A program made the position numbers and the translations under genes. The notes below the pieces were generated by a model, which searched no databases, was not told the origin of the DNA, and saw nothing but the letters and a program-made list of their open reading frames with translations. 33,661 nt of DNA from NCBI GenBank assembly GCA_030600555.1, contig JAUVLW010000009.1:1-33661 (forward strand), written 5' to 3'. Source of the DNA: Candidatus Aenigmatarchaeota archaeon. GTDB lineage: Archaea > Aenigmatarchaeota > Aenigmatarchaeia > QMZS01. Of the stretch, positions 2,724 through 25,668 are shown piece after piece (position 1 is the first letter of the stretch; each line of letters begins with the position of its first letter).

Positions 2724-2761
2724 TTTCTTCAACTAATTGTTGCGACATGAGCCCGACGCGA

Positions 2762-2851
2762 TTTTCAACCACCCATTTAAACTTTGATTTTTCAACCAAG
2801 TTTGTTTTTGGGGTGCAGACCTTTTTAGCTAATTTAACTGAAAAGGGTTGC
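2762..2851 (-). other. T-loop intron of tRNA-Lys, about 90 nt (position 59/60 or a 1-2 nt shift)
   Basis: T stem-loop GCGCG-TTCGAA|gcaaccctttt...aggtctgcaccccaaaa...gggtggttgaaaa|T-CGCGT; shares conserved blocks with the tRNA-Val T-loop intron. Confidence 0.85.
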
Positions 2852-2873
2852 TTCGAACGCGCGACACCCAGGT

Positions 2874-2928
2874 TTCTTCTTACACCATTTATCATGGGGC
2901 ATTACTAATATACCCTCTAAACTTTAAA
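2874..2928 (-). other. Canonical-position (37/38) anticodon-loop intron of tRNA-Lys, 55 nt
   Basis: Anticodon stem-loop TCAGG-CTTTTA|intron|A-CCTGG. Confidence 0.87.
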
Positions 2929-2950
2929 TAAAAGCCTGATGCTCTACCAG

Positions 2951-2980
2951 ATTACTCCCTTCTTTTTTTCAAAACAAGGA
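2951..2980 (-). other. D-loop intron of tRNA-Lys (about 28-30 nt; boundaries ambiguous by 1-2 nt)
   Basis: Insert tccttgttttgaaaaaaagaagggagtaat between GTAGCTCAG and CTGGTAGAGC. Confidence 0.82.
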
Positions 2981-3144
2981 CTGAGCTACGGGCCCATAAG
3001 ATATCTTAAAAAATAGTTTTATATTCTTATTTGTACCTTCTCAGTGATTTATATTTATTTTAATTAAATAAGAATTTCCATGAAAATTTAGCCATCCTAA
3101 ATTAAAAAATATACAGAATTATGCTGAGGTGGCGGAGCGGCTAA

Positions 3145-3184
3145 GTCTTTTTTAGGCAACACTTAAAAAACGGCTCTGAACTAA
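3145..3184 (+). other. D-loop intron of tRNA-Ser, 40 nt (flanked by CTAA direct repeat, so boundary shiftable)
   Basis: Insert gtcttttttaggcaacacttaaaaaacggctctgaactaa between GAGCGGCTAA and CGCG; removal restores the D arm. Confidence 0.8.
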
Positions 3185-3225
3185 CGCGCCAGCCTGGAAA
3201 GCTGGTTCTCGAAAGGGAGCGCAGG

Positions 3226-3261
3226 TAAATACCCTATTCCGAGGAAAAGGGATTTTGCGAA
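3226..3261 (+). other. T-arm intron of tRNA-Ser, 36 nt (53/54 or 54/55)
   Basis: GCAGG|taaataccctattccgaggaaaagggattttgcgaa|TTCAAATCCTGT; removal restores T stem GCAGG/CCTGT and the TTCAAAT loop. Confidence 0.8.
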
Positions 3262-3308
3262 TTCAAATCCTGTCCTCAGCGTATAATTTATTAATTTTAT
3301 TGACTATT

Positions 3309-3824
3309 ATGGCAAAGCTAAGACCAGCTCGATGCACTCGGGAAAAAAAGAGACCTTGGACAAGGCAATCAAGAAAAAAACCGAGAGTTGGATATGTTAA
3401 AGGTGTTCCTCAAACAAAGATAAGAAGGTATGTTACTGGCACCAGAGCAAATTATGAAACCAGCTATTATCTTACATGCACATCAAAACTGCAGATAAGA
3501 GATAACTCGATAGAAGCCGCAAGAATTACAATTTCAAATTACCTGCAAAAAAACATAAAATTAAATTTTTATCTTATTTTAAGAAAATATCCTTTTCAGG
3601 TACTTCGGGAACACAAGCAGGCTGCTGTTGCCGGAGCGGACAGGTTCTTCGCAGGAATGAGGCACGCCTTTGGAAAACCCGCTGGTATGGCTGTTGTAAT
3701 GAACAAAAATGGAATTTTATTTGAACTGAAAATTGACAAAAGATATGAACATTTAGCAAAAAATGCATTTAAACGCGCAAGTCAGAAATTATCCGGAAAT
3801 TATAAAATTGTCTGCAAAGATTGA
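3309..3824 (+). CDS. rpl10e: 50S ribosomal protein L10e (uL16 family)
   Basis: MAKLRPARCTREKKRPWTRQSRKKPRVGYVKGVPQTKIRRYVTG... ; ORF-track start at 3255 is inside the tRNA-Ser gene, so internal ATG 3309 preferred. Confidence 0.93.
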   Translation: MAKLRPARCTREKKRPWTRQSRKKPRVGYVKGVPQTKIRRYVTGTRANYETSYYLTCTSKLQIRDNSIEAARITISNYLQKNIKLNFYLILRKYPFQVLREHKQAAVAGADRFFAGMRHAFGKPAGMAVVMNKNGILFELKIDKRYEHLAKNAFKRASQKLSGNYKIVCKD

Positions 3825-4012
3825 TTCATTAATCCGATTGGCTGAATAATTATAAACAATTTCATTAACACCATTACCAGCAATGCGAAAAATATCACCA
3901 AATAACAACCCACAAAAACAACAATTGCCCGTTTTAAAACAGGATTTATATTCTTGTGACTGGATAAATATGATAAAAACACAAGACCCTGTAAAACAGC
4001 AAATATCAACAC
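3800..4012 (-). CDS. Small (70 aa) predicted two-TM membrane protein, hypothetical
   Basis: Downstream of L14e on the same strand; two hydrophobic segments separated by a KNINPVLKR loop; overlaps the L10e 3' end by 25 nt in convergent orientation. Confidence 0.4.
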   Translation of the reverse strand: MLIFAVLQGLVFLSYLSSHKNINPVLKRAIVVFVGCYLVIFFALLVMVLMKLFIIIQPIGLMNQSLQTIL

Positions 4013-4073
4013 AATTAAATAACCTATCTCAGACAGAATTAATTAATCTCTTTATTAGAATTACCTATTAATC

Positions 4074-4538
4074 TTATTTTTCTGTTTTTGACTTTGTTTC
4101 TGGTTTTGTGGTTGTTTTTGAGGTTTCCTCTGTTTTTGACTTTGCTTCTGGTTTTTTTGTTGTTGTATCTTCAGTCTTTGATTTGGTTTCTGGTTTTTTT
4201 ATTGCTTTTGGAGTTGCTTCTGTTTTCACAGGTTTTTGGTTCTTCGCTTTGTTGAAAAGAAGTTTAAATCTTTTTTTATCCTTCAAAAATCCTAATCTTT
4301 TGATTATTCCGCTCTCAGAGATGCTTTTCTCCACATCTTCCTGTTTCTCTCCTTTTAACGGAATCTTATATTTTGTAATAATCAAATGTTTAACATTGCA
4401 TCTTCTCCTGCTGCACATCCCATATTTAATTGCGCCTGAAATCTCTGCAAAAGAACCTTCCAAAGGTTTTACAATAATACAATATCTTCCTCTTTCTCTC
4501 CCGGCGATTTTCTTGCAAATCTGACCTGCTTCTACCAT
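4074..4538 (-). CDS. rpl14e: 50S ribosomal protein L14e with a repetitive K/T/E/P-rich C-terminal tail
   Basis: MVEAGQICKKIAGRERGRYCIIVKPLEGSFAEISGAIKYGMCSRRRCNVKHLIITKYKIPLKGEKQEDVEKSI...; ATG at 4536-4538 rather than the 4655 start of the ORF track. Confidence 0.88.
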   Translation of the reverse strand: MVEAGQICKKIAGRERGRYCIIVKPLEGSFAEISGAIKYGMCSRRRCNVKHLIITKYKIPLKGEKQEDVEKSISESGIIKRLGFLKDKKRFKLLFNKAKNQKPVKTEATPKAIKKPETKSKTEDTTTKKPEAKSKTEETSKTTTKPETKSKTEK

Positions 4539-4564
4539 TATAAAATTCAGAATAAATTTTAATA

Positions 4565-5569
4565 ATGGATATTCAAAAATTGCTGAAGGAAAGAAACATA
4601 GAATTAAGCTATTTGGATGAGAAATATGATTTTCCTGAATTAAAAAAAGGCACAATTATTACAAATAACGGGGGATTTACCAAAAATCTGCTTTCAAATT
4701 TGGGCTTTGAGGATTTTTACCCGGTTTCTGACGCATCTATTGATAAAGTGGAAGAAATTAAAAAAAATGATCATGTTAATTATATAATTGGATTTGGGGG
4801 CGGAAAAGCGATTGATATTGCAAAAAAGCTGGCTTATGATCTGGATTTAAATCTAATTTCAGTTCCAACTGCACCTTCGCATGATGGATTGATTTCAAAG
4901 AACTGTTCTCTTTACAACGGCGTGAGGAGAGAAACAATCCCCACAAAATATCCCTCAAAAATAATCATTCCTTTATATCTATGGAAATATTCCGGTGATT
5001 TGAAAAAAGCCGGAACCTGCGATTTAATATCCAACCTAACAGCTCTGCAAGATGTAAGTCTATCAGAAAAAAAAGGGGAAAGTTTTTCAGAATTTTACAA
5101 ACAATTAAGTTTTGAATCCGCGGAAAAAGTTTTGGGTTGCGGAACTGACAAAGAACTTGCGGAGGCGTTGATTATGTCAGGCATTGCAATGGAAGAAACT
5201 TCAAAATATTGTTCAGGGAGCGAACATGAAGTTGAAAGACTTCTAGAAGAAAAAATAAACGGGGGTAAATATTTGCACGGGCAACTCGCGGGAACCGGAA
5301 CATTAATTTCAGCAAAAGTTTATGAACTTTATTCCAATGAATTTTCTGGTTTAAGATTTGAGTCAAAAAATTTGTTTGAAGATATCAAAGAAAAAATGAA
5401 AAAAGTTGGAGTATATGAATTTGCGATTGATCCTCTTAAAGATGAAAAATTCAATCCTGAGATTCTTAGAGAAATTAGCAAAATAAGGCCTGAAAGATAT
5501 TCTATCTGGAATGTTATTGACTCTAAAAAAGTTGATTGGGGGAAAGTTGTTAGAGGGATTTTGGAATGA
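4565..5569 (+). CDS. egsA: sn-glycerol-1-phosphate dehydrogenase
   Basis: IIGFGGGKAIDIAKKLAYDLDLNLISVPTAPSHDGLISKNCSL, AGTCDLISNLTALQD, and SGSEHEVERLLEEK.....HGQLAGTGT metal/NAD-binding signatures. Confidence 0.9.
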   Translation: MDIQKLLKERNIELSYLDEKYDFPELKKGTIITNNGGFTKNLLSNLGFEDFYPVSDASIDKVEEIKKNDHVNYIIGFGGGKAIDIAKKLAYDLDLNLISVPTAPSHDGLISKNCSLYNGVRRETIPTKYPSKIIIPLYLWKYSGDLKKAGTCDLISNLTALQDVSLSEKKGESFSEFYKQLSFESAEKVLGCGTDKELAEALIMSGIAMEETSKYCSGSEHEVERLLEEKINGGKYLHGQLAGTGTLISAKVYELYSNEFSGLRFESKNLFEDIKEKMKKVGVYEFAIDPLKDEKFNPEILREISKIRPERYSIWNVIDSKKVDWGKVVRGILE

Positions 5570-5583
5570 ATTGAATATACTGT

Positions 5584-5687
5584 CACTTTTGTTACGACAA
5601 GAGTTGCAAAAGTTTTAAATATACTTAATACATATTATATTATCAGATAATGATAACAACCATATTCTATCTGATAAGGTGAAAAAA
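5584..5687 (+). promoter_or_regulatory. Conserved promoter-leader copy 1: palindrome TTGTTACGACAA (5589-5600), TATA-like TTTTAAATA (5613-5621), hairpin (5640-5677), SD GGTGA (5678-5682)
   Basis: 28 nt identical to copy 2 (cacttttgttacgacaagagttgcaaaa) and near-identical after that; hairpin arms TTATCAGATA/TATCTGATAA. Confidence 0.8.
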
Positions 5688-6329
5688 ATGAGAAAATATT
5701 CATTCGGGGAAATTTCCAAAATTCGACCAGAAGAATTATTGACTAACAGAGAATTGCAGAGAAATATTCATTATTCAATTTACGATAAAACTACAAGAGA
5801 TCCTGAAATTACAGACAAAGAATCGCAATACAACCCAAATTCCCAGATTGTGCTAAAAAATGTATTAGGTGAAAATTCTGCGGTTTTAGAAAAAGATACT
5901 TTCCAGCTGGCTGACGAAACTCACACTTACTTTTTTCCAAAACTCTGGCCAACTGAAGAGATTCCAGATTATTTGAAACAAGAAGATTTAATTCCATCCG
6001 GATATTCTACCTTAGATAATAGTTTATATGAAAATGTGCAGGAAGAACTTAATCTAACTAAAGAACAAATGGAAACGGAAATTTACAAAAAAAATAGGGA
6101 GGTAATTGAAAAATTAGGAACTGAAGAAGTTCCATTTAACAAAACTTTGTTTAGGGTTGAAGGCGAAAATGAAGTACCGGAATTATATAACCGAGCAACA
6201 GGACAATGGGAAGAATATAAAAGTAAAAATGTAAAATGGGGTTATAGAGAAACAAATCCCGGAGTGTCATGGTACATATTCCCTTACAGTGAAGATATGA
6301 TGTTTAGATATGATCTTATCTCCGAATAA
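5688..6329 (+). CDS. Hypothetical protein (unknown family), first gene of an operon with an HDAC-like protein
   Basis: ATG at 5688 five nt after SD GGTGA; stop just before the HDAC ATG. Confidence 0.8.
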   Translation: MRKYSFGEISKIRPEELLTNRELQRNIHYSIYDKTTRDPEITDKESQYNPNSQIVLKNVLGENSAVLEKDTFQLADETHTYFFPKLWPTEEIPDYLKQEDLIPSGYSTLDNSLYENVQEELNLTKEQMETEIYKKNREVIEKLGTEEVPFNKTLFRVEGENEVPELYNRATGQWEEYKSKNVKWGYRETNPGVSWYIFPYSEDMMFRYDLISE

Positions 6330-6331
6330 TT

Positions 6332-7243
6332 ATGACCTCGATTATCTACCACCCGGATTACCTTAAGCATGAAACTGGAAATCATCCTGAAAACAAATTT
6401 AGGTTGGTTGCAATAATGAATGAGATTTATAACTCTGATTTAAATATAAATACAATCAAACCCAAACAGGCATCTATTGATGAAATAAATTTAGTTCATA
6501 CTCCGGGTTATATTAAAAAAGTGGCAGAATATTCAAAAAAAGAATCTCCCCTTGACCCTGATACTATTACCTGTAAAGATTCCTACGAAACTGCGTTGCT
6601 TTCGGTGGGTGGCGCTATAACTGCAGTAGATTCTCTTGATAAAAGAGACAATACCTTTGCATTAGTTCGTCCGCCGGGGCATCATGCTCTTCCCAACCAA
6701 GGAATGGGTTTTTGTCTCTTTAATAATATTGGGATTGGAGCAAAATATGCCCAAACTATTGGATATGATAATATTTTGATTGTGGATTGGGATGCGCATC
6801 ATGGAAACGGAACGCAGAACATATTTTATGATGATCCCTCTGTTTTCTATTTTTCAGTCCACCAATCACCAGGTTACCCAGGAACAGGATTTTCTGAAGA
6901 AACAGGTTCAGGAAAAGGTGAAGGATATACTAAAAATATTCCTCTTCCTCCAGGATTAGGAGATAAAGAATATCTGGATGTTTTTGAAAAATATTTGGCG
7001 CCTGTCGCAGACAAATATAAACCAGACCTTGTTTTAATATCAGCTGGTTTTGATGCTCATATTGATGACCCTATGGCTGAGATGAATGTCACCAGTACTG
7101 GATTTGAAAAAATGGCTTCTGAAGTTTATTCAATTGCAGAAAAACATTGCGATGGAAAACTGGCAATGGTGCTTGAAGGTGGATATAATCCAAAGGCACT
7201 TTCATATTCTACAAAGAAAGTGCTTGAAGTTATGTCTAAATAA
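6332..7243 (+). CDS. Histone deacetylase / acetoin-utilization / acetylpolyamine amidohydrolase superfamily protein
   Basis: Class II-type HDAC motifs: VRPPGHHALPNQGMGFCLFNNIGI, DWDAHHGNGTQNIF, SAGFDAHIDDPMAEM, LEGGYN. Confidence 0.93.
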   Translation: MTSIIYHPDYLKHETGNHPENKFRLVAIMNEIYNSDLNINTIKPKQASIDEINLVHTPGYIKKVAEYSKKESPLDPDTITCKDSYETALLSVGGAITAVDSLDKRDNTFALVRPPGHHALPNQGMGFCLFNNIGIGAKYAQTIGYDNILIVDWDAHHGNGTQNIFYDDPSVFYFSVHQSPGYPGTGFSEETGSGKGEGYTKNIPLPPGLGDKEYLDVFEKYLAPVADKYKPDLVLISAGFDAHIDDPMAEMNVTSTGFEKMASEVYSIAEKHCDGKLAMVLEGGYNPKALSYSTKKVLEVMSK

Positions 7244-7261
7244 AATAATAAAAAATTAAAT

Positions 7262-7690
7262 TCACAAATCCTTAAAAAACAACACATATTCTTTATCCTT
7301 CTTAAACCCAGCCTTTTCGTAAAAATTTAGTGATTTTTTGTTTGATTTTGGGGCAAACAAACTGACCAATTTTATTTTTCTTTTTTTTAGTTCTTTCAGA
7401 TAAGAGTCCATTAATTTTGTGCCAATTTTATAATTCCTGTATTCCGGTTTCACAACAAGATAAGTCAATACGGACAATTTGGTTAAATCATATATTTCAG
7501 AAAGAAGAAACCCAACAATTTTTTTGTCTATTTCCGCAACAAGAACAAAACCATATTCAATAACAACTTCAAAATATTTTAAACCCAAAGTCCTGCCTTC
7601 AACCATAGTCACTTCTTTTGTAGCCTTGCCTATTTTTTCAAGTGTTTTCGCGTCTTCCAGAGTTGCAGTTCTAATCACCAGAGTATCCAT
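7262..7690 (-). CDS. GNAT-family N-acetyltransferase
   Basis: IRTATLEDAKTLEKI...VAEIDKKIVGFLLSE...YLVVKPEYRNYKIGTKLMDSYLKELKKRKIKLVSLFAPKSNKKSLNFYEKAGFKKDKEY. Confidence 0.9.
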   Translation of the reverse strand: MDTLVIRTATLEDAKTLEKIGKATKEVTMVEGRTLGLKYFEVVIEYGFVLVAEIDKKIVGFLLSEIYDLTKLSVLTYLVVKPEYRNYKIGTKLMDSYLKELKKRKIKLVSLFAPKSNKKSLNFYEKAGFKKDKEYVLFFKDL

Positions 7691-7731
7691 AATTTAATAA
7701 CCGTTTATCCAATACTTTGGTAAATATAACT

Positions 7732-8475
7732 TCAAATTTTCCTGCTCTCATCCCACTCCCGATTTAACCATGCGCTTAGACAGAAAATACATTTCTTATA
7801 ATAAATAGCCACTGCATTTATATTGTCTTTGCTTTCAAATAAATTGGTATAATATTTTTTGTCCACCAGTAAATTTCCATGGGCTGGTTTCTCTTCAATT
7901 CCCCTCCTGACATCAAACATTTTTTTAATGCTTCTAAGCGAGGACACTTTTTGCTTTGAACTCAAAATTATTTTTACGCTAACTTTTTTCCTCTTTGCAT
8001 ATTCTAAATCAGGAATTAATTTGTCCAATAAAGAAGTGGAAATATAATTTAAAATTATCTCTGATTTTGCTTTTGAAATAAATGTTTTTATTAATTTCAA
8101 AACTTTTTCCTCTCCCGAGATTAATTCCTGCGCAGCTTCTGAAATTATTTCTTCATCTTTTTTTGAGTGAGCCTCAATTTCTTCAAGAATTTCTGTTTTT
8201 GCTTTTTTTAATTTACTTTCTTCTTCATCCAGCTTCTTTTTGATTATGTTGAAATTTGCTGGTTTATATATTGCAGGTCTTTCTTCTATTATATTCACCC
8301 AGCCCTTTCTTGCCAAGGTTGAAAGTATATCATAGATTCTTGCTCTAGGCACTTTGGATAACTTGGATAACTCTGTGGCTGAAGAAGTTTCTGAAACACA
8401 GACCGCATAATATACTTTTGCCTCATAATCTGTAAGACCAAAAGTTTTCAGGGCATTGAGTATATTCTCTTCCAT
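7732..8475 (-). CDS. TrmB-family transcriptional regulator
   Basis: N-terminal wHTH FGLTDYEAKVYYAVCVSETSSATELSKLSKVPRARIYDILSTLARKGWVN followed by a coiled linker and sensor-like domain. Confidence 0.88.
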   Translation of the reverse strand: MEENILNALKTFGLTDYEAKVYYAVCVSETSSATELSKLSKVPRARIYDILSTLARKGWVNIIEERPAIYKPANFNIIKKKLDEEESKLKKAKTEILEEIEAHSKKDEEIISEAAQELISGEEKVLKLIKTFISKAKSEIILNYISTSLLDKLIPDLEYAKRKKVSVKIILSSKQKVSSLRSIKKMFDVRRGIEEKPAHGNLLVDKKYYTNLFESKDNINAVAIYYKKCIFCLSAWLNREWDESRKI

Positions 8476-8506
8476 AAAAAAATCTGTATTTTGTGTTTAA
8501 ATATAC

Positions 8507-8609
8507 CACTTTTGTTACGACAAGAGTTGCAAAACTTATAAATATACTAAATATATATTATATTATCAGGTAGTGACAACAGATAAATACTACTTGATAG
8601 GTGAAGAAA
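8507..8609 (+). promoter_or_regulatory. Conserved promoter-leader copy 2: palindrome TTGTTACGACAA (8512-8523), TATA-like TTATAAATA (8536-8544), hairpin (8564-8599), SD GGTGA (8600-8604); the palindrome also abuts the divergent TrmB promoter
   Basis: Near-duplicate of 5584-5687; arms TATCAGGTAGT/ACTACTTGATA (11 bp with one G-U). Confidence 0.8.
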
Positions 8610-9203
8610 ATGGAAAAAATTGCGGAATCGGATAGGGTTTGGAGAGATGGTGTTGCTGAAGGAGAAATTATCCACTATTGGCAATCTAATAATTCAGGAT
8701 ACTCTGACGGGAGATTTAAGACCAATTCAGACATTAAAGAATATGCAAAAGACCATCCTGTAATTTTGGTTGTTGACTTAATGATTGGGGCTGGGACTTA
8801 TGACCCACTTAAAGAGCTTTGTGAAGGATTTATAATGAATGATTTTCCAGTCTCTGGAAGTCATAAACCCAACCCAAATATAAAATTTCAAATCAGATAT
8901 GATTCAGGAAGAGAACCTAAGGTCAAAGACCAACCAATTGGTATTATAGATTATGCCTTGGGACTTCATAGAAAAGAACTGGAAAGAGTTCCTTACGAAG
9001 ACAGAAAAGAATTATGGGAAAAATATCCAACCAACCTAAATTGTCCAACAGATATTATTGGTGGTAAACAATATTCTGTTATGATTGAAGATGGTAATAA
9101 TGAAATATTTTATGACTCCAACAGAGCTTTATTAAAGGAAAGGCAAAAAGTCAGGCTTGAATGTAAAGCTGGTAAAACTGTTGTTTATGGGATTGGTGGG
9201 TGA
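8610..9203 (+). CDS. Hypothetical protein (unknown family)
   Basis: ATG at 8610 with upstream SD GGTGA; ORF 8601-9203 in track. Confidence 0.75.
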   Translation: MEKIAESDRVWRDGVAEGEIIHYWQSNNSGYSDGRFKTNSDIKEYAKDHPVILVVDLMIGAGTYDPLKELCEGFIMNDFPVSGSHKPNPNIKFQIRYDSGREPKVKDQPIGIIDYALGLHRKELERVPYEDRKELWEKYPTNLNCPTDIIGGKQYSVMIEDGNNEIFYDSNRALLKERQKVRLECKAGKTVVYGIGG

Positions 9204-9208
9204 AGAAG

Positions 9209-10171
9209 ATGAAAGATGCAGATGAGTATTTGAAAAGATTTCATGGGTTAGATAATAATTTAAACCCTAAAAAAATTCCGCAAGATTTAATTTTCAAAGA
9301 GCACGTTGATAAAGATTGTTATCAAAGTTTCACACAATGGAGTGAATATTATGATAGAAATAATTGGTCTGATAAAGAAGTTTATGAAGTTATTGGTGAT
9401 TATCCGGATTTACCTGAAACTCCTGAAGAAATTCAAGCGCTTATTTACAAAATTGAAAGTGAGCCTAATCTTTTAGAATCCGGGCATTACATTTCTTATT
9501 GTATAAATGAAATTCCCGACAAAGATATTGAACTTGAGCTAAAAAAATCTTATAGTTATCTTGGTAGAAATAATAATAAAAATTTAACCCTTAAAGGGGA
9601 TGTTGCTGATTGGGCTGGATATAAAAATAAAGGGAAAATTATTGTTGAAGGAACTGCTGGAGATTGGGCTGGAGCCTATATGGCTGAAGGGGAACTTATT
9701 GTTGAAGGAAATGCCCATTATTTAGTTGGAGCTCATATGCGGGGAGGAGATATTCTTATCAAAAAAAATTGTAGTGACGGCGCTGGAGATGAAATGCATA
9801 GTGGAAATATTATTGTTGAAGGAAATGCTGGTACTGCTGGAGATGGTATGTATGGAGGGCACCTTATAATCAAAGGGTGCGCTGGTAAGAGAGTTGGAGC
9901 TAATATGCAAGGAGGTGACATTATTATTGAGGGTAATGTTAAGAATCAATTGGGGTGTTATATGGTAGGAGGGAAAATTATTGTTAAAGGTAATGCCCAT
10001 TATTTAGTTGGAGATGAGATGTATGGTGGAGATATTATTATTGAAGGAACTGCCGAAGAATATATTGGAAGAGGTATGCGAGGAGGTTCTATTAGAGTTA
10101 AAGACAAACTTTATGTTCGTGGAGAAAAACATTATTGCGACGACGATTATATTATAGTTGTGGCAGATTGA
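9209..10171 (+). CDS. GXGXG-repeat beta-helix protein (FwdC / glutamate synthase alpha C-terminal domain-like) with a unique N-terminal domain
   Basis: About nine tandem about 19-20 aa repeats of the type GxxMxGGxIIIEGNA (e.g. GDGMYGGHLIIKGCAGKRV, GANMQGGDIIIEGNVKNQL, GDEMYGGDIIIEGTAEEYI); SD GGTGA then ATG at 9209. Confidence 0.85.
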   Translation: MKDADEYLKRFHGLDNNLNPKKIPQDLIFKEHVDKDCYQSFTQWSEYYDRNNWSDKEVYEVIGDYPDLPETPEEIQALIYKIESEPNLLESGHYISYCINEIPDKDIELELKKSYSYLGRNNNKNLTLKGDVADWAGYKNKGKIIVEGTAGDWAGAYMAEGELIVEGNAHYLVGAHMRGGDILIKKNCSDGAGDEMHSGNIIVEGNAGTAGDGMYGGHLIIKGCAGKRVGANMQGGDIIIEGNVKNQLGCYMVGGKIIVKGNAHYLVGDEMYGGDIIIEGTAEEYIGRGMRGGSIRVKDKLYVRGEKHYCDDDYIIVVAD

Positions 10172-10198
10172 TAAATTTGAGAATGAAAGAGAAAAATT

Positions 10199-10693
10199 AT
10201 GAAGGATGGAAAAATATTGTGGATGCACTTTGCGAGATATAATGCCAACAACAATGTCTGGATTGAGACAAAATTAATATTGGATTACTTTAAAGGACCT
10301 CTCGGGAAAAAACTTGATGGGAGTACTTAAGATATGGCTAATCGCGAAAGATATAGAAGGGGTGAGAAATTTCCATCCTATCGTGAAAAAAAGACTTTCC
10401 CCACAGGAGTGCATTATGGAATTGATGGTGGTATGAGATATCTGCTGAATAATCAAGATATTGTTATTTCTTATAAATATTATGAGATAAAACCCTTAGA
10501 CAGCCCTTTTGATATTTACCTTGGTCAATATGACGCAGATAAATCCTTAATTACTTGAAATGGAGTTGATATAATAGATGTGAGGGATTTTAAACGTCAT
10601 ATAGATTTTCAGGACAGTGGGGTTTACGAAGGCTATAATGAATGGAATAAAAAACCTTACTTAATTAAATTCATTGAAATTACTCCTCATTAG
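10199..10693 (+). pseudogene. Single reading frame interrupted by in-frame TAA (10328) and TGA (10556); degraded hypothetical gene or several tiny ORFs
   Basis: One frame reads MKDGKILWMHFARYNANNNVWIETKLILDYFKGPLGKKLDGST*DMANRERYRRGEKFPSYREKKTFPTGVHYGIDGGMRYLLNNQDIVISYKYYEIKPLDSPFDIYLGQYDADKSLIT*NGVDIIDVRDFKRHIDFQDSGVYEGYNEWNKKPYLIKFIEITPH*. Confidence 0.5.
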
Positions 10694-10766
10694 ACTGAAA
10701 TTTAAGTTTTTCTGAAAAGAGATTTATTTTAATTTATTTACCTTTTATGGGCTGGTGGTCTAGACT

Positions 10767-10796
10767 CTGAATAGCAACAGATATCAGGGAGATAAG
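10767..10796 (+). other. D-loop intron of tRNA-Val, about 30 nt
   Basis: Insert ctgaatagcaacagatatcagggagataag between GTCTAGACT and GGTTATGAC. Confidence 0.8.
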
Positions 10797-10839
10797 GGTT
10801 ATGACGCTGCCTTTACAAGGCAGAGGTCGGCGGTTCAAA

Positions 10840-10944
10840 TGCAACCCTTTAAAAACAATCGTTTTCTTTCAGAAAACGGTGCATCATTTTCGAAGAAAAT
10901 GAATGAGGTCTGCACCCCAAAATATAATTGGGGTGAAATGGAAA
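10840..10944 (+). other. T-loop intron of tRNA-Val, about 105 nt (position 59/60 or a 1-3 nt shift)
   Basis: GGCGG-TTCAAA|tgcaaccctttaaaaac...aggtctgcaccccaaaatataattggggtgaaatggaaa|T-CCGCC; shares blocks with the tRNA-Lys T-loop intron. Confidence 0.85.
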
Positions 10945-10966
10945 TCCGCCTCAGCCCATTTTAATT

Positions 10967-25549: not shown

Positions 25550-25668
25550 AAGTCGGCAACGTCATGATGTTTCCACCCATAAGGCAGTACTTACCAAATC
25601 GCTGGAAGACTTAACTTCTGTGTTCGGGATGAGAACAGGTGTACCCCTTCCGCTATGGTCGCCAACTT
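25550..25668 (-). rRNA. rrf: 5S ribosomal RNA, unlinked to 16S/23S in this window
   Basis: Reverse strand aagttggcgaccatagcggaaggggtacacctgttctcatcccgaacacagaagttaagtcttccagcgatttggtaagtactgcc...ggtggaaacatcatgacgttgccgactt with the CCCGAACACAGAAGUUAAG-type 5S core. Confidence 0.95.

Follow-up and report, generated by a model that had tools for sequence, protein, structure and literature searches.

A Family of Small Hairpin Elements in tRNA Genes and Intergenic Regions of Candidatus Aenigmatarchaeota, Probably Mobile and Spliced as tRNA Introns

Large-scale transposition of tRNA introns has been inferred in Thermoproteales (Fujishima 2010), by a mechanism that the cited passages describe as unknown (PMC4090602, PMC4033280, PMC4390854). 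It is the nearest precedent for what we describe here in contig 25 of a draft genome of Candidatus Aenigmatarchaeota (815 kb, 82% complete; G000), a 33.7-kb stretch called the window below. Two tRNA genes of the window, for tRNA-Lys(UUU) and tRNA-Val(UAC), carry related inserts in their T loops. We consider it likely that these are copies of a lineage-specific mobile hairpin element that serves as a tRNA intron spliced by the host endonuclease EndA. Judging from the sequence, we have high confidence that the inserts are of the EndA type and would be ordinary in their removal; they are unusual in their distribution.

A shared and covarying core

ARAGORN, run on the raw window, missed both tRNA genes, but recognized them as perfect once the predicted introns had been removed. 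The initial annotation of the window had placed an interruption common to both tRNAs in the T loop, and had done so correctly: the junction is 59/60 and the inserts measure 90 and 105 nt. The blocks it had described as shared, GCAACCCTTT at the 5' side and AGGTCTGCACCCCAAAA (17 nt, exact) internally, are indeed found in both. It had missed the D-loop introns of the two genes and the anticodon-loop intron of tRNA-Lys (Table 1).

The core of the element folds into a helix P1, NNAACC/GGUcUN'N' with a bulged C, around a hairpin P2 of variable size, whose loop may hold one to several extra hairpins. The two hairpins previously seen in the tRNA-Val insert are such extras, carried in the P2 loop. A stem had also been noted after the block; the stem following ACCCC is present, but P1 (GCAACC/GGTcTGC in tRNA-Lys), the helix that covaries, had been overlooked.

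Among 48 distinct short cores, 95.1% of the P1 cells were paired, as against 17–36% in slid registers. Cells changed in a compensatory manner on both sides numbered 25, compared with 5.7 ± 1.9 in shuffles, and none of 500 shuffles reached 25. Seven fully paired outer triplets were observed (GCA/TGC, AAA/TTT, TGA/TCA, AGA/TCT, GAA/TTC, GGA/TCC and TAA/TTA), with compensatory changes both inside and outside tRNA genes; in the orthologous tRNA-Lys intron, the outer triplet is GCA/TGC in G000 and G006 versus TGA/TCA in G004. Kinship among the sequences can raise counts of this kind, yet the P1 switches are spread over different species and loci. On this comparative evidence the core is a genuine fold, and its copies make up a structured family of small elements. 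The initial annotation's view of primary motifs kept constant over a changeable scaffold holds up, and so does that of a structured family, whose covariation, which it had proposed looking for, is clear. Signs of mobility are described below.

The family is also far larger than the two introns from which it was first noticed. A 16-mer from the conserved block, AGGTCTGCACCCCAAA, has 13 exact occurrences in the 815-kb genome and 3 more with a single mismatch, while the reversed pattern, used as a control, gave just 2 + 2 matches at up to 3 mismatches. The loci of the 16-mer, together with the next-best matches, placed 17 copies of the element in 16 tRNA genes. Fourteen lie at 59/60 (Met, Asn, Glu(UUC), Glu(CUC), Tyr, Lys(CUU), Lys(UUU), His, Val(CAC), Val(GAC), Val(UAC), Gln, Ser(UGA) and Ile) and three at 37/38 (His, Arg(UCU) and Leu(CAA)), the tRNA-His gene holding two; the element also occurs in at least one D loop. 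A covariance model built on the 46-nt core (R1) recovered the same tRNA copies from this genome and added intergenic ones. A second, distinct family of tRNA introns, T(G)AGGTTTTCTTTC...GAAAGAAACACCTCAAGCAAAAG, was found at 59/60 and 37/38 in Arg, Glu and Leu genes (four loci).

Compensatory changes in P1 in and outside tRNA genes, along with a conserved 16-nt block, might also be expected of a functional small RNA (a guide or a circular regulator) freed from the pre-tRNA by splicing, its fold being under selection. Excised archaeal introns can be circular, which is in keeping with this idea. However, covariation would also be expected if EndA or a transposase had to recognize the hairpin, and copy number and location vary between sister species. 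No family-wide box C/D consensus was seen by eye, and the guide role that had been suggested finds no support: beyond the element copies, the genome contains neither perfect nor one-mismatch sites for the 16-mer. We therefore regard a small RNA of this kind as improbable.

Splice junctions and the splicing machinery

The junctions were compared over 41 T-loop introns, chosen by pairing of the T stem (5 pairs) and of the acceptor stem. In 34 of them, nucleotides 54–57 (UUCR) form four out of four pairs with the 3' end of the intron, leaving a 3-nt bulge before C61; slid registers of this helix, H, gave four pairs in 0–4 of the 41. H had been used neither for selecting the introns nor for choosing the 3' exon. 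In at least two of the seven failures (L008 and L148) the script had picked the wrong 3' exon, implying that the count of 34 is conservative. Position 57 covaries with its partner: A57 stands opposite U 18 times and opposite C never, whereas G57 faces C 9 times and U 8 times.

In the window, H reads UUCG/UGAA in tRNA-Lys, with the bulge AA|U before the T stem, and UUCA/UGGA with the same bulge in tRNA-Val. Inspected by eye, the copies at 37/38 follow this geometry too, using nucleotides 32–35 (His CUGU/AUAG, Arg CUUC/GAAG, Leu CUCA/UGAG). So does the anticodon-loop intron of tRNA-Lys, where the exon sequence CUUU (32–35) pairs with GAAG, followed by the bulge AA|A; this intron is identical in three related species.

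This is the exon-side half of a bulge-helix-bulge motif; in the T-loop introns, the predicted cleavage points follow A59 and precede U60. On the intron side, P1 begins 2–3 nt past H on the 5' strand, and a hairpin P3 (ACCCC...GGGGU) splits P1 from H on the 3' strand, an interruption that makes the motif a relaxed one. Minimum-energy folds of the whole pre-tRNAs gave no splice geometry, which emerged from comparing copies. The earlier impression that no clean bulge-helix-bulge exists holds for the intron-side helix h', but not for the 3' splice site, where a 4-bp central helix and a 3-nt bulge are present; the clear motif that would have spoken for ordinary splicing is therefore there in part.

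Relaxed hBH and BHL motifs are known substrates of EndA (PMC4033280), and a broad specificity of the enzyme is described (PMC12397907). The genome encodes one EndA of 290 aa, with N- and C-domains (both Pfam domains), and an RtcB ligase. Very probably, to judge by the junctions, the T-loop inserts are removed by the host EndA as ordinary tRNA introns, and the suggestion that they are spliced by something other than the endonuclease loses its ground in view of the relaxed geometry, the covarying position 57 and the presence of both enzymes. A novel self-splicing ribozyme, toward which the conserved motifs, the bulged C in a short helix and the small size had pointed, seems very hard to sustain: no group I, group II or other ribozyme family of Rfam matched at the gathering threshold or at E ≤ 5, the junctions fit EndA geometry with covariation, and the core is kept in intergenic copies that need no splicing.

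Distribution, mobility and rival explanations

We searched 60 genomes with the covariance model, whose E-values are rough. The element was found in all but one (G003) of the 9 genomes of the same genus and in the family's two other genera, the best E-values of clear matches ranging from 1e-8 to 1e-18; the 49 other genomes of the class gave only chance-level scores (E about 1e-3 and weaker). Because copies in relatives were picked by matches to a model made from this genome, diverged subfamilies are under-counted. When 84,980 species genomes were scanned with a strict pattern, Aenigmatarchaeota records alone matched, the strictness of the pattern leaving remote homology possible. The element is, as far as searched, lineage-specific and confined to one family of Candidatus Aenigmatarchaeota, and the further homologs that the initial annotation had called for are plentiful both in this genome and throughout that family. 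A viral carrier was considered and rejected, as the 19 viral matches to the 16-mer lacked the partner block and lay in unrelated sequence.

Several sites differ between close relatives. An intergenic copy (G000:C3:18821-18902) comes after the stop codon of a gene read by eye as thymidylate-kinase-like, and the orthologous junction is without the element in G002, G003 and G004. The anticodon intron of tRNA-Leu(CAA) is absent in G006 and has three different sequences in G000, G001 and G004, with otherwise nearly identical flanks; the 37/38 copy in tRNA-Arg(UCU) of G000 is likewise missing from G006. In relatives, non-tRNA copies directly follow tRNA 3' ends, come after stop codons, precede antitoxin-like genes or are nested in other elements (L138, L139). 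At two sites of a CRISPR (clustered regularly interspaced short palindromic repeats) array (L166, G008:C11:26000-44000; 7114-7400 and 9431-9583), a spacer is replaced by a copy of ~115 nt. The element is non-coding, dispersed in many copies and present or absent at orthologous sites, as are miniature inverted-repeat transposable elements (MITEs). Short complementary ends (CAACC...GGTTA) are visible in some intergenic copies.

The introns could instead have spread among tRNA genes alone, as in Thermoproteales, by recombination or gene conversion through the conserved T-arm sequence, the remaining copies being debris of tRNA genes. Consistent with this, most of the high-scoring copies of this genome sit inside tRNA genes, some isoacceptor pairs (Glu) have similar 3' halves, and similar introns are described for many Thermoproteales tRNAs in the passages cited (Fujishima et al. 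2010, via PMC4090602 and PMC4033280). Nevertheless, we find this explanation rather unlikely, because intergenic copies of several subfamilies carry no visible exon remnants and have empty orthologous sites, and because other copies are antisense to tRNAs in genus g2, inside the CRISPR array or nested.

Under the mobile-element explanation, which we favor, the element would spread as a DNA hairpin, in the manner of MITEs, repetitive palindromes or mitochondrial double-hairpin elements, and an insertion in a tRNA gene would survive only where it can be spliced. The 3' end of the element, usually UGAA-AA, pairs with exon nucleotides 54–57 (or 32–35) and leaves a 3-nt bulge before the exon stem. 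The substrate would then comprise, in order, exon stem h, a bulge, the 4-bp H, a 5' bulge and P1 in place of h', with P3 as an extra hairpin on the 3' strand; EndA would cut this relaxed bulge-helix-bulge and RtcB would join the exons. Since UUCRA is nearly universal in T loops, a single intron 3' end would suit nearly every tRNA, and this would account for the location of 14 of the 17 copies at 59/60.

Some observations count against this explanation. On the 3' strand, h' and H are not contiguous, which makes the motif a relaxed one and a putative substrate of this EndA. Target-site duplications were not established at the empty orthologous sites examined. As for a parental transposon of the IS200/IS605 type, four Y1 transposase loci in relatives were without the element (other transposase families were not searched), and Y1 transposases, though present in some relatives, were not found in the present genome, which is 82% complete. 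A local reverse transcriptase as the agent of retro-insertion fared no better, there being no RVT_1 in 11 genomes. Finally, every genome compared is a draft assembly in many contigs. This last point might even hint at an assembly or binning artefact, but that is scarcely credible, given that ten genomes, drawn from several differently named projects, carry the family and that two copies lie within the 33.7-kb window with their gene context intact.

The origin of new archaeal tRNA introns is an open question, the transposition in Thermoproteales having been inferred without a mechanism, and the element suggests a source for them. Its copies within tRNAs, beside them and at a distance, in several close species and with empty sites, allow a direct comparison of donors, targets and products. 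Introner-driven intron gain occurs in eukaryotes, and would have an archaeal parallel if element insertion followed by EndA splicing is the route. We are evenly divided on whether these elements are archaeal "introners" in the full sense, that is, a genome-wide mobile hairpin whose insertions into tRNA loops would be ready-made EndA-spliced introns arising through ordinary transposition, with related modules in CRISPR repeats and spacers and at gene boundaries. Annotation tools are predicted to overlook many tRNAs of the lineage, as ARAGORN did in the window.

Some further arrangements were observed in relatives. At four loci of genus g2, tRNA T-loop introns have an antisense element at their 3' end, and at least one of them (L137) has a sense unit at the 5' end too, resembling inverted terminal copies. 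At five loci, element copies start no more than a few bases from a tRNA 3' end. The CRISPR array mentioned above has repeats of about 37 bp and spacers of about 36–40 nt; at its first site, the flanking repeats themselves hold a hairpin module (CATTCGTTTTC...GAGTGTC). A related subfamily, AAAACCC...GGTCTTTACCCC and variants, lies antisense directly upstream of start codons (e.g., CAT-AAAACCC) at seven loci, in front of several unrelated genes in several species, and is possibly a 5'-leader hairpin or a regulator. Near-identical antisense copies also precede a family of small antitoxin-like genes (start ATGGCAGAGATTGTTGT) at five loci, recurring several times in one contig.

Table 1. Features of the window, with positions counted from its first nucleotide
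Feature	Position	Strand	Details and evidence
tRNA-Lys(UUU) gene, three introns	2748..2995	-	exons 2995-2979, 2949-2929, 2873-2852, 2761-2748; joined, perfect tRNA-Lys (ARAGORN)
tRNA-Lys T-loop intron at 59/60, family member	2762..2851	-	90 nt; covariance model R1, E 3.6e-16
tRNA-Lys element core	2806..2851	-	P1 GCAACC/GGTcTGC enclosing hairpin P2, then ACCCCAAAA; R1 match, P1 covariation over 48 copies
tRNA-Lys second intron at 37/38, without the shared blocks	2874..2928	-	sequence; removal gives normal anticodon arm
tRNA-Lys D-loop intron, boundaries approximate	2950..2978	-	removal gives normal D arm
tRNA-Val(UAC) gene, two introns	10749..10958	+	exons 10749-10763, 10797-10839, 10945-10958; joined, perfect tRNA-Val (ARAGORN)
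tRNA-Val T-loop intron at 59/60, family member, two hairpin modules within core	10840..10944	+	105 nt; R1, E 6.4e-7
tRNA-Val element core	10841..10922	+	inserted hairpins CGTTTTC/GAAAACG and TCATTTTC/GAAAATGA; R1 match, fold
tRNA-Val D-loop intron, boundaries approximate	10764..10796	+	removal gives normal D arm
5S rRNA gene	25551-25666	-	sole Rfam gathering-level match of the window

Comparison with known systems

The element shares with the tRNA introns of Thermoproteales, as the cited passages describe them, relaxed bulge-helix-bulge junctions. It differs in belonging to another phylum (Aenigmatarchaeota, DPANN), its core being unmatched in any Thermoproteales genome by the strict pattern scan, and in having a conserved, covarying core with hairpin modules as well as non-tRNA copies with empty sites.

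The introns of ARMAN and Nanoarchaeum, with their broad-specificity EndA (PMC12397907, PMC4033280), resemble the present ones in their DPANN-type hosts, their non-canonical positions and their relaxed motifs of the hBH type, which EndA cuts there and very probably here too. However, the cited passages of these papers report a dispersed family of homologous introns for neither, and the EndA of the present genome consists of a single 290-aa chain that carries an N- and a C-domain once each.

MITEs and Rickettsia palindromic elements (PMC2229807) are likewise short, non-coding, hairpin-rich and dispersed, both in intergenic regions and within RNA genes. Unlike the present insert, which is very probably spliced out, Rickettsia palindromic elements remain in the RNA or protein (PMC2229807), and unlike MITEs the present element has no established terminal inverted repeat or target duplication and no parental transposase.

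Mitochondrial double-hairpin and other repetitive hairpin-forming elements (PMC2800124, PMC4478555) are also mobile hairpins that litter a compact genome. They are organellar, and the likeness is one of description, not of sequence comparison. To our knowledge, mitochondrial double-hairpin elements are not spliced.

Archaeal group I introns (PMC6125680) are inserted in archaeal RNA genes as well, but the inserts described here are far too short, with no catalytic core and no Rfam match. Judged against the open-licence literature, what is new in the present family is its lineage, its conserved covarying core and its non-tRNA copies with empty sites.

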